DNA of 64,000 nucleotides, taken from Thiopseudomonas denitrificans (GTDB taxonomy: Bacteria; Pseudomonadota; Gammaproteobacteria; Pseudomonadales; Pseudomonadaceae). The notes beneath the pieces were generated by a model that was not told where the DNA came from, ran no database searches, and saw only the letters and a program-made list of their open reading frames with translations. Below, piece after piece: positions 1-55,440 of this stretch; position 1 is the first letter of the stretch; each line of letters starts with the position of its first letter. The stretch is from contig NZ_LNJZ01000009.1 in the NCBI RefSeq assembly GCF_002866065.1, positions 386,813-450,812 on the forward strand, in the 5' to 3' direction. The translations under genes and the position numbers were made by a program.

Positions 1-220
1 ATCATGTGCGAATGAATTCGCCTGGCCAATAACGGTCATGAAACAAACGGTGTGAACGCATAAGCATCCACACCTGTAGGTTCGAATTTATTCGAACAAC
101 TGCAGATCCGGCCACACCGGAGCAGGAATCATGTGCGAATGAATTCGCACAGGCACAAAAGCCTGTGCGAAGGGGCTTGCCCCTGAGAAAGCCCAGCCTC
201 ATACAGGTTCGAATTTATCC
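1..220. repeat. Cluster of REPIN-like palindromes
   Basis: This gene-free stretch lies 3' of murJ and holds several short palindromes of one family. A truncated copy of GTGCGAATGAATTCGC is at 6-20. A TTCGAAC-type palindrome (arms GTTCGAAT and ATTCGAAC) is at 80-97, a GCGAAT-type one (arms GTGCGAAT and ATTCGCAC) is at 133-150, and a half copy starts at 207. Bases 1-20 repeat bases 128-147 exactly, so a second element is cut by the window edge. Bases 75-150 are nearly the reverse complement of 55365-55440, which makes this one defined element rather than chance palindromes. A hairpin with arms GCACAGGC and GCCTGTGC sits at 147-168. No coding frame here looks real. Confidence 0.8.
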
Positions 221-233
221 GCTCGGCATTCGG

Positions 234-1793
234 TCAGCGCCTCAAATGCCGCAAGCGCATACCCGTCAATCCCAGGCCAGCAACAAAAGCGACAATCCCG
301 GCCACGACCAGAATGCCGACTTCCAGCACCCGCTTCTGCCAGCCCCAGGCCAGCCACTCCGCTGACGGAGCATTGAGCCAGAACACCACGGCAACCATCA
401 GCACACAGCCGGTTGCCAGCTGCAATATGAAGCGGCCCCAACCCGGTGCGGCACGATATACACCGGCCTTGTGCAGGCCCCATAGCAACAGGCCGGTGTT
501 GAGCATGCTCGACAGCGAGGTGGCCAGCGCCAGCCCGACATGCTTGAGCGGCCAGATCAGGATCAGGTTCATCACCATGTTGGCCACCATGCAGATCACC
601 GCAATGCGCACCGGCGTCTTCATGTCCTGGCGAGCAAAAAAGCCCGGCGCCAGCACCTTGATCAGCATGAAGGTCAGCACACCCAGCGAGTAGGCCTGCA
701 GCGCCAGCGCCGACTGGCGCACGTCGACATCCGTCATCTGGCCATAATGGAACAGGGTGGCAATCAGCGGTTCGGCCAGCACGCCCAGTGCCAGCGCCGC
801 CGGTACACCGACCAGCAGTACCATGCGCAGCGCCCAGTCCACCGTCGCGGAAAAGGCTTTCGGATCTTCTCCGGCATGCTGGCGTGACAGCGCGGGCAGT
901 ATCACTGTCCCCACGGCAATGCCGAATGCACCCAGCGGCAACTCCGACAGACGGTCGGCGTAGTACAGCCAGGATACGCTGCCGGTCTGCAGAAACGACG
1001 CCAGCACGGTATCCAGCAACAGGTTGATCTGGCTCACACCGACACCGAACAGCGCCGGCAGCATCAATAGCATGATGCGCTTGACGCCTTCATGACCTTT
1101 GGCCGGTCTGGGTAACGGCAGCAAACGGATCTGCCACAGAAAGGGCAGCTGGAACAGCAGCTGCGCGACCCCCGCAATGAACACGCCCCAGGCCAGCGCC
1201 ATGATCGGCTGGTCAAACAGCGGGCTTAAAAACACTGCCGCACCGATCATCGACAGATTGAGCAGTACCGGTGTGAACGCCGGCACCGCAAAACGGCCAT
1301 AGCTGTTGAGAATGCCGCCACAAAAAGCGGTCAGCGACACCAGCATCAGATAGGGAAAGGTGATGCGCAGCAGCTCGCCGGCCAGTTCCAGCTTGGCCGG
1401 GTCGGAATGGAAGCCCGGCGCAAACAGCATGATCAGCCAAGGTGACAGCACCACGCCAAGCAGAGTGATAATGGTCAGGACAAACCCCAGCTGCCCGGCG
1501 GTGCGGTCGACCAGGATCTTCACCTCGGCCAGCGTGCGCTTTTCACGATACTCGGACAATACCGGCACAAAGGCCTGGGCGAAGGCACCTTCGGCAAACA
1601 GGCGACGCAGAAAGTTGGGAATCTTGAACGCGATGAAAAAGGCATCGGCCGCCGGACTGGAACCAAAGTAGCCGGCCACTACAATGTCACGGACCATGCC
1701 CAGCACCCGTGACAGCATGGTCATCATGCTAACGACCATGCTGGAGCGCAGCAGCCCGCCTTTTTTTCCAACCTGACCCGCTTGCTCCTGCAT
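234..1793 (-). CDS. murJ: MurJ, lipid II flippase
   Basis: This is an inner-membrane flippase that moves the peptidoglycan precursor lipid II to the periplasmic side (MOP superfamily, MurJ/MviN family). The protein is 519 aa and strongly hydrophobic with about 14 membrane segments. It carries the family N-terminal signature around SMMTMLSRVLGMVRDIVVA, the KIPNFLRRLFAEGAFAQAF block and the YYADRLSELPLG segment. I chose the ATG at 1793 because an AGGGTCAGG-like ribosome site precedes it and because family members begin shortly before the SRVLG motif. An upstream ATG at 1823 has no convincing ribosome site. The gene diverges from the EAL-domain gene. In many pseudomonads murJ lies near ribF and rpsT; those neighbours are outside this window. 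Confidence 0.95.
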   Translation of the reverse strand: MQEQAGQVGKKGGLLRSSMVVSMMTMLSRVLGMVRDIVVAGYFGSSPAADAFFIAFKIPNFLRRLFAEGAFAQAFVPVLSEYREKRTLAEVKILVDRTAGQLGFVLTIITLLGVVLSPWLIMLFAPGFHSDPAKLELAGELLRITFPYLMLVSLTAFCGGILNSYGRFAVPAFTPVLLNLSMIGAAVFLSPLFDQPIMALAWGVFIAGVAQLLFQLPFLWQIRLLPLPRPAKGHEGVKRIMLLMLPALFGVGVSQINLLLDTVLASFLQTGSVSWLYYADRLSELPLGAFGIAVGTVILPALSRQHAGEDPKAFSATVDWALRMVLLVGVPAALALGVLAEPLIATLFHYGQMTDVDVRQSALALQAYSLGVLTFMLIKVLAPGFFARQDMKTPVRIAVICMVANMVMNLILIWPLKHVGLALATSLSSMLNTGLLLWGLHKAGVYRAAPGWGRFILQLATGCVLMVAVVFWLNAPSAEWLAWGWQKRVLEVGILVVAGIVAFVAGLGLTGMRLRHLRR

Positions 1794-11075: not shown

Positions 11076-11394
11076 CCTTTATATCACAGAACGCCCAGAA
11101 AAGCATGGGGACACCCAAGTCAGTTCGGGACTGACAGTCCATAGCACGATCAACAGCTGTCCGAATAAATTCGGACCTACACAAAGCACGTCCTGCACGG
11201 TCCCGTCCGCCCCACCTGTAGGTGCGAATTCATTCGCACAAAATCCGCACAAAGACCGCCACGGCACCGGGGATAATGCATCAACAAATCAACAGCAACA
11301 GCAAAGCCCCGGCCCGCCTTTGGCTTGCCGGCATTTCGCGCTATAATGCCACGCTTTCTTCAAGCCCTTTGTTATCGGGAATTTCTGCAAGATC
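11076..11394. other. Divergent rib / valS intergenic region
   Basis: The stretch between the FMN riboswitch and valS has no credible gene. It contains an inverted pair of REP-like palindromes: one with arms GTCCGAAT and ATTCGGAC at 11159-11176 and one with arms GTGCGAAT and ATTCGCAC at 11222-11239. The short heads CCTACA and TGTAGG of these copies point toward each other. The valS promoter -10 box follows at 11342-11347. Confidence 0.7.
11342..11347 (+). promoter_or_regulatory. Probable valS -10 box
   Basis: A perfect TATAAT lies 47 bases before the valS ATG. The matching -35 region is weak (TTTGGC at 11319-11324, 17-base spacer), so the call rests on the -10 match and position. Confidence 0.5.
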
Positions 11395-37717: not shown

Positions 37718-37900
37718 GTGCGAATAAATTCGCACCTACAGCCGCTCCTGTCTGCTTTACACGGACCAAATGCAGACTCGAATTCATTCGAACAAACCAG
37801 AAGCCGCCAAACAACAGCGGTTCCTGTGCGAATGAATTCGCACCTACAGCCGCTGGCCTGCATTTACCCGGACCAGGTGTAGGTTCGAATTTATTCGAAC
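37718..37900. repeat. Tandem pair of REPIN-like elements
   Basis: Two units, each a pair of inverted REP-like palindromes, follow each other 108 bases apart. Unit 1 has the perfect arms GTGCGAAT/ATTCGCAC at 37718-37735 and an imperfect TTCGAAC-type copy at 37775-37793. Unit 2 has the GCGAAT-type copy at 37826-37843 and a TTCGAAC-type copy at 37883-37900. The spacers begin alike (CCTACAGCCGCT), which suggests duplication of one unit. It lies between xerD and rplS. Confidence 0.8.
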
Positions 37901-42090: not shown

Positions 42091-42106
42091 AGTTCAATTG
42101 CTGTAG

Positions 42107-42162
42107 GTGCGAATTTATTCGCACATGGTTTTGAGTCTAGAGTTGTGCGAATAAATTCGCAC
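42107..42162. repeat. Inverted pair of REP-like palindromes
   Basis: Perfect 18-base palindromic units with arms GTGCGAAT/ATTCGCAC lie at 42107-42124 and 42145-42162. They are inverted to each other with the head TGTAGG outward. The pair lies between convergent yceF and the DUF454 gene, where such pairs commonly end transcripts. Confidence 0.8.
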
Positions 42163-42189
42163 CTACAGATCAAAGCCGAATCAACAGGT

Positions 42190-55360: not shown

Positions 55361-55440
55361 GTAGGTGCGAATTCATTCGCACATGACTCCTGCTCCGGTG
55401 TGGCCGGATCTGCAGTTGTTCGAATAAATTCGAACCTACA
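55361..55440. repeat. REPIN-like pair, near-copy of the element at 75-150
   Basis: A GCGAAT-type palindrome (55365-55382) and a TTCGAAC-type palindrome (55418-55435) are separated by a 35-base spacer. The stretch from 55365 to 55440 is the reverse complement of 75-150 with one visible base difference, spacer included. Confidence 0.85.

Follow-up and report, generated by a model that had tools for sequence, protein, structure and literature searches.

In a 64,000-nucleotide stretch of the Thiopseudomonas denitrificans genome (hereafter, the window) lie two 76-base sequences in opposite orientation, which raise the question of whether they are copies of one mobile unit and why the two palindromic arms of each are unlike. 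As the initial annotation had stated, the stretch at 75-150 matches 55365-55440, read as its reverse complement, at all but 1 of the 76 bases. The flanks on both sides of the unit are unlike between the two places, which contradicts its confinement to larger repeated segments. The arms have the general form GTAGGT-N-CGAATTYATTCG-N'-AC, in which a perfect hairpin of 8 bp with a 2-base loop carries its tag outward, and we name the REP types by base N. In the first copy, the left arm is a T-type REP with a GTAG tag (76-97, plus strand; C1:386888-386909 on the contig), whose hairpin at 80-97 is GTTCGAAT-TT-ATTCGAAC. The right arm is a G-type REP (133-150, minus strand), which reads GTGCGAAT-TC-ATTCGCAC on the other strand and has lost its GTAG tag. 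The loop is TT or TC on the tagged strand, so the direction of each palindrome can be read. The spacer between the arms (98-132) contains a third, small hairpin, TCCGG-CCACA-CCGGA. The inverted copy is made of a G-type arm (55361-55382, plus strand), a spacer equal to the reverse complement of 98-132 with one difference (55383-55417) and a T-type arm (55418-55439, minus strand), both with GTAG tags; outward tags are thus found on three of the four arms. Two outward-tagged perfect hairpins around a variable spacer bear out the earlier identification of the element at 75-150 as a REPIN.

Further REPs occur in the window. A C-type REP at 11159-11180 (minus strand; C1:397971-397992) has its tag facing that of a neighboring G-type REP at 11218-11239 (plus strand; C1:398030-398051). 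A G-T-G-T row starts with a G-type REP at 37718-37739 (minus strand), continues with a T-type REP with a degraded tag (37772-37794, plus strand, 3 mismatches) and its G-type partner at 37826-37847 (minus strand), and ends with a T-type REP at 37879-37900 (plus strand). A G/G REPIN with an 18-base spacer lies at 42103-42166. Beside the first copy, at 169-186, there is a second palindrome, GAAGGGGCTTGCCCCTGA, of another kind than the REPs; five occurrences of GGGGCTTGCCCC were counted in the 1.01-Mb sample described below, when a duplicate at the window start is counted.

That duplicate belongs to a seam. An N at C1:386812 immediately precedes the first base of the window, and the 270 bases ahead of it (C1:386542-386811) recur without a difference at C1:386833-387102 (window 21-290). 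To judge from the assembled sequence, two overlapping contig ends were probably joined here without being merged. Because of this probable overlap, neither the upstream duplicate nor the "further cut copy" that had been noted at bases 1-20, a G-type palindrome fragment (8-21, minus strand) beside the N, is an independent copy, and the window start is unfit for copy counting. Immediately upstream of the window there are three further T/G pairs at intervals of 161 bases. It is extremely improbable that the repeat family as a whole is an assembly or duplication artefact; the N and the exact duplicate would fit such an origin, but the seam touches one array, and the hundreds of copies elsewhere refute it for the family. 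REPs also stand at the very start of two contigs (C1:1-22 and C2:1-22) and within 90 bases of the end of C1 (C1:812555-812568), so REPs may themselves have broken the assembly.

The repeat is abundant beyond chance. In the 2.84-Mb genome (9 contigs), the core CGAATTYATTCG occurs 388 times and the same pattern read backwards does not occur; there are 265 G-type and 58 T-type cores. The exact full motif is present in 279 copies (139 forward, 140 reverse). The other 397 genomes of the family that were searched contain it twice in all, once each in two genomes; among 36 relatives, the lone exact copy is in the same-genus genome G002, and none was found in G001 or G003 of the same genus. Therefore, the REP family is an expansion of this lineage. 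For the pairs, we used contig C1 and positions 1-200000 of C6, a sample of 1.01 Mb that covers about 36% of the genome and leaves about 64% outside the pair count. A scan that admitted up to 5 mismatches in 23 positions, with overlaps merged, gave 178 REPs, and one control shuffled in two-base blocks gave 2 matches, at 4 and 5 mismatches. The consensus GTAG-GT-stem-ACA has 110 exact matches in this sample and none in the one shuffle. By a crude ORF proxy, 16 of the 178 REPs lie inside the interiors of ORFs of at least 250 codons, which make up 72-74% of the bases.

Inverted, outward-tagged pairs with a short spacer, a high copy number and a mostly extragenic location are all as in REPINs, and copying of a unit into different flanks is seen in the one case examined in detail, that of 75-150 and 55365-55440. 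Of the 76-base unit, it is the arm pair that is common; its exact spacer occurs in the 1.01 Mb at two places and the seam duplicate only. Some copies form tandem arrays: C1:142144-143125 (period about 178), C1:243970-244566 (about 160), C1:685450-685778 (about 126), C6:119494-119857 (about 95) and C4:142574-143096 (varied periods). Every copy of the four arrays on C1 and C6 pairs a G arm with a non-G arm; the row on C4 has one spot with two successive G-type cores.

As described in the consulted parts of the literature, the REPIN/GTAG-1 doublets of Pseudomonas (PMC3116915, PMC3733652) have in common with this population the GTAG tag, the GT extra bases, a short perfect stem, a 2-base loop, outward inverted pairs with a variable spacer, hundreds of copies and a RAYT flanked by the same REPs. 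A GTAG-1 REP is defined by a GTAG tag, GW extra bases and a 3-base tail; the consensus found here has all three, and its GT and AC also pair. However, doublets of SBW25 are rarely mixed (PMC3116915), and the GTAG-1 dimers of P. putida and P. entomophila are mostly homodimers (PMC3733652), whereas the mixed pair is the rule here.

Each arm keeps its own stem complementary while the two arms differ. N and N' are complementary in 167 of the 178 REPs (G-C 99, T-A 38, C-G 21, A-T 9) and not in 11; the other stem positions keep one main pair, and every stem position is complementary in at least 164 of 178. Outward pairs with starts at most 110 bases apart numbered 67, and 66 after one across the seam N was dropped: 34 T/G, 18 C/G, 8 A/G, 4 G/G and 2 with an uncompensated arm. 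Merging of like-spacer copies within 1.5 kb left 44 pairs, of which 42 could be classified. Among these, 38 were G/non-G and 4 were G/G (42103-42166 being one of the four), so that arms of the same REP type, usual in the REPINs of SBW25 though not strictly defining, are the exception; none was non-G/non-G. The non-G arm was T in 23, C in 10 and A in 5 loci, and each of these bases has a matching partner in the stem. The same first 19 spacer bases stand beside a T arm at C1:757875 and a C arm at C1:731518. When these arms were re-paired at random, G/non-G pairs numbered 21.06 on average and at most 36 in 100,000 trials, none of which reached 38, although this permutation treats pairs as independent of common descent, which is the main weakness of the test. 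For a G arm, a non-G partner is near-obligate. The mixed pair that the initial annotation had seen at one element is a rule of the genome in the 1.01 Mb, and the palindrome types co-occur beyond chance.

A stricter scan, with tandem and seam copies uncollapsed, agrees with this picture, with 44 outward pairs, comprising 38 G/non-G, 4 G/G and 2 uncompensated. Uncollapsed outward neighbors at most 160 bases apart comprised 60 G/non-G, 5 G/G and 3 with an uncompensated arm, so that a fifth exception is added at this distance; inward neighbors comprised 40, 1 and 3, respectively. Neighbors in the same direction were 6 G/G, 1 non-G/non-G and 1 with an uncompensated arm. Among the REPs that belong to no outward pair, the G type predominates (28 G, 4 T, 3 C, 1 A, 8 uncompensated).

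Overall, we put at roughly 0.7 the probability that the elements are REPINs, that the pairing rule holds and that the RAYT is interrupted (see below), taken jointly; the reason for the rule is outside this figure. A possible reason, to which we give well under even odds, is a founder effect, in which one mixed ancestral REPIN was copied as a whole unit and the difference between the arms is without function. In the published model, REPINs are copied as entire doublets (Bertels and Rainey 2011, PMC3116915); here, some copies have common spacers and stand in tandem arrays, and descent from one mixed founder could yield much of a pattern to whose ancestry the permutation is blind. However, the non-G arm exists in three compensated states (T 23, C 10, A 5), G/G is rare and non-G/non-G is absent; neutral drift should turn second arms to G and G arms away from G. 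The same first 19 spacer bases stand beside a T arm at C1:757875 and a C arm at C1:731518.

We tentatively suggest, at somewhat longer odds, that the difference itself is the rule: selection would keep the arms unable to anneal, with the second arm taking T, C or A and each change being compensated in the stem. With equal caution, we suggest a possible reason for keeping the arms different: if they were alike, they would pair with each other in a single long hairpin, in place of the two small ones readable by a RAYT. In the proposal of Bertels and Rainey, recognition is unlikely for the long hairpin and likely for the clover form (PMC3116915), and Di Nocera suggested that heterodimers are harder for repair enzymes to destroy (PMC3733652). 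We folded as DNA 26 mixed pairs that had no more than 1 mismatch per arm, with the innermost pair open because the program forbids 2-base loops. The two forms were close to balance, the long arm-to-arm stem being less stable than two hairpins by a mean of 1.06 kcal/mol; when the arms were made alike, the long stem was 6.94 kcal/mol more stable. The long form was favored in 8 of the 26 real pairs, compared with 26 of 26 with arms made alike. In minimum-energy folds that include spacer pairs, the arms were still joined in 17 of the 26 real pairs, so the long hairpin, although weakened by unlike arms, is not eliminated. Any mismatch would weaken the long hairpin, and the folding effect is therefore a consequence and not proof of selection. 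Additionally, unlike arms are no general need, since like-arm genomes with many copies exist. If the difference rule is true, unlikeness would be a repeatedly evolved device that favors the two-hairpin form readable by a RAYT and keeps REPINs out of the long hairpin attacked by repair enzymes.

We are more doubtful still of end polarity, according to which the transposase needs two distinguishable ends, the G arm being one and the non-G arm the other. The G arm is near-fixed and the second arm variable, and the RAYTs assayed in vitro are active on the tagged REP but not on the complementary sequence (PMC8266576), which would present one arm per strand. Moreover, among the 40 collapsed pairs other than G/G, 15 have a spacer hairpin of at least 5 bp, which in 14 cases is closer to the non-G (in one case, uncompensated) arm. 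Four of the 14 lie near the middle (0.42 to 0.47), 2 of the 14 are the copies at 75-150 and 55365-55440, and 9 of the 15 hairpins are of the GCCCGGC-n-GCCGGGC kind; we regard this possible polarity as a lead. Against a need for two kinds of end, the RAYT gene here stands between two G-type REPs, and G/G prevails for same-core REPs in other genomes. In the family member G011, 30 of 32 outward pairs are alike and the other two are G/A (by eye, among 100 listed of 156), and in G013, also of the family, all 8 pairs are G/G (among the 50 listed of 159), with only the 5' stem base matched in both comparisons. Like arms also prevail in G037 (6 of 6 pairs, three of the GGGC type) and G038 (4 of 5, the fifth with a damaged arm). 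Published results on RAYTs (PMC8266576) fit the compensated stems found here. Against a base-specific reading, stem-base swaps in Stenotrophomonas maltophilia had no drastic effect on cutting, and changes at the three bottom positions improved it (PMC8266576), so stem-base identity may matter little.

Unlike arms are not special to this genome. In the betaproteobacterium BP_23 (Betaproteobacteria bacterium BP_23, G039, with RAYT locus L171), all 15 outward pairs with starts at most 50 bases apart are mixed, as judged by eye, and the G arm GTAGGTGCGAATTYATTCGCAC is common to BP_23 and this genome. However, the second arm in BP_23, GTAGGGCCGAATTYATTCGGCC (GGCC), differs at two stem positions and is of one type only, in contrast to one position and three types here. 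The single pair of G040 is mixed. A survey of 93 RAYT loci with a loose hairpin finder, which also admits chance hairpins, found an outward tagged pair at 41, with 47 pairs unlike and 34 alike. On a RAYT tree of 94 rows labeled from the few kb around each RAYT (22 mixed and 16 like, with 54 rows without a pair and 2 undecided left out), at least 8 changes are needed, whereas shuffled labels need 12.5 on average (2 of 500 shuffles needed so few), and starred branches force only 2 changes between mixed and like. Two labels need care: the label of the T. denitrificans locus, L051, which itself lacks a pair tagged on both arms, was assigned manually on the basis of the whole-genome pairing, and that of L079 is misleading, being mixed although its genome, G013, has 8 of 8 G/G among the 50 listed of 159. 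The spread of unlike arms over the tree is poorly resolved.

Heterodimeric REPs are in print for enterobacterial GTAG-3 (E. coli y-z1, y-z2) and P. aeruginosa GTAG-24 (PMC3733652, PMC8266576), which have in common with this genome unlike REPs, alternating orientation and partly tandem arrays; the GTAG-24 partners also differ in the stem (PMC3733652). E. coli REPs differ from each other in loop and length and are bulged, whereas the stems here are perfect and differ at one compensated pair with three alternatives. Alternating unlike REPs in arrays, a feature of E. coli-type BIMEs, are thus found here, and the bulged stem is absent. A host function, with BIME-like arrays acting at mRNA ends or on supercoiling or gyrase and host selection on the arms, is unlikely. 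Tandem arrays at several loci, the position of REPs mostly outside long ORFs and the mosaics of unlike y-z1 and y-z2 REPs in E. coli BIMEs (PMC8266576) are consistent with it, but the motif is near-absent in 397 other family genomes, three of the same genus included, as expected of a mobile repeat. Together, these comparisons describe a real population of a known REPIN kind with an unusually clean unlike-arm rule, and a rule of "G against any non-G" was not met with in the parts of the REPIN, RAYT and heterodimer literature examined. In 2013, the preference of many REP families for unlike partners had no obvious explanation, as stated in the consulted part of Di Nocera 2013 (PMC3733652). In the present genome, the arms differ at just one stem base pair, for which the second arm has three alternatives, and this, together with the same-core genomes that have like arms, makes explanations by arm identity, arm difference and a founder separable.

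The only RAYT gene found in the genome is flanked by these REPs, which makes it a candidate for their cognate RAYT, and is interrupted by an in-frame TAG. Profiles PF01797 and NF047646 each matched one gene in the genome (NF047646 at C2:290579-290992, minus strand, 146.8 bits), and the locus is L051:8562-9014 (C2:290561-291013), on the minus strand. The single TAG cuts the frame into pieces of 58 and 89 codons at a position that is W in 16 of the 18 relatives aligned there, just before a V-MPDHLH-like motif. Both the HLH and the C-terminal part have stayed intact, and the piece of 89 codons scores above the NF047646 cut-off by itself (101.3 bits). Six bases beyond the TAG there is an ATG; a split, two-piece RAYT restarted there is unlikely. 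The TAG may be a sequencing error, a second RAYT may lie inside an assembly gap, and the interrupted RAYT may not be the enzyme behind the latest copies. The gene has a G-type REP upstream and G-, T- and G-type REPs downstream, the last without a tag. Its neighbors are presumably recN and sfsA, to judge from the protein sequences; no RAYT was found between these two genes in G002 or G001, and on the recN flank of G003 neither a RAYT nor sfsA was found. The best whole-protein matches are L151 (65%) and L155 (61%), and in the genomes of these two closest RAYT relatives, G037 and G038, G-type REPs pair with themselves.

RAYTs that have become pseudogenes have been reported, with subsequent decay of their REPs proposed (Nunvar 2013, PMC3686654). 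If decay is the rule, any loss of RAYT activity should be recent because 110 REPs still match the consensus exactly. A conserved, perhaps recoded, amber codon was considered, since TAGs occur inside the RAYT matches of G000, G005, G010, G018 and G026, and was rejected because the stops are differently placed. There is one stop each in L051, L047 and L068 and three in L178, and L069 is broken in two pieces; the differing positions point to gene decay in these five loci, with L067 (G005) and L046 (G026) set apart.

REPINs are short, non-autonomous mobile units of two outward-tagged REP hairpins; as a putative mechanism, going by published RAYT biology, a RAYT would have cut and copied the hairpins as single strands. 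The RAYT and its REPs probably entered the lineage beside recN, and the REPINs would then have expanded. The G arm may be the fixed end, and the opposite arm may carry any base but G at that pair; unlike arms may also help a RAYT to read REPINs and perhaps protect them from destruction by repair enzymes. A TAG would later have interrupted the RAYT, and the population may now be frozen or decaying. The movement itself is read from the sequence.

Two minor observations concern the RAYT loci. Between recN and the RAYT (L051:9210-9410) stand tandem copies of a unit that contains ACTCCGCAAAGCTC and GGGGGATTTTTAGCACTTAGG, and a 21-base part of it is absent from C1 and C6:1-200000. The same-genus genome G001 carries an uninterrupted, distant RAYT (L070) amid several copies of a different REP type, GTAGGTCTGGCTTTAGCCTGAC.
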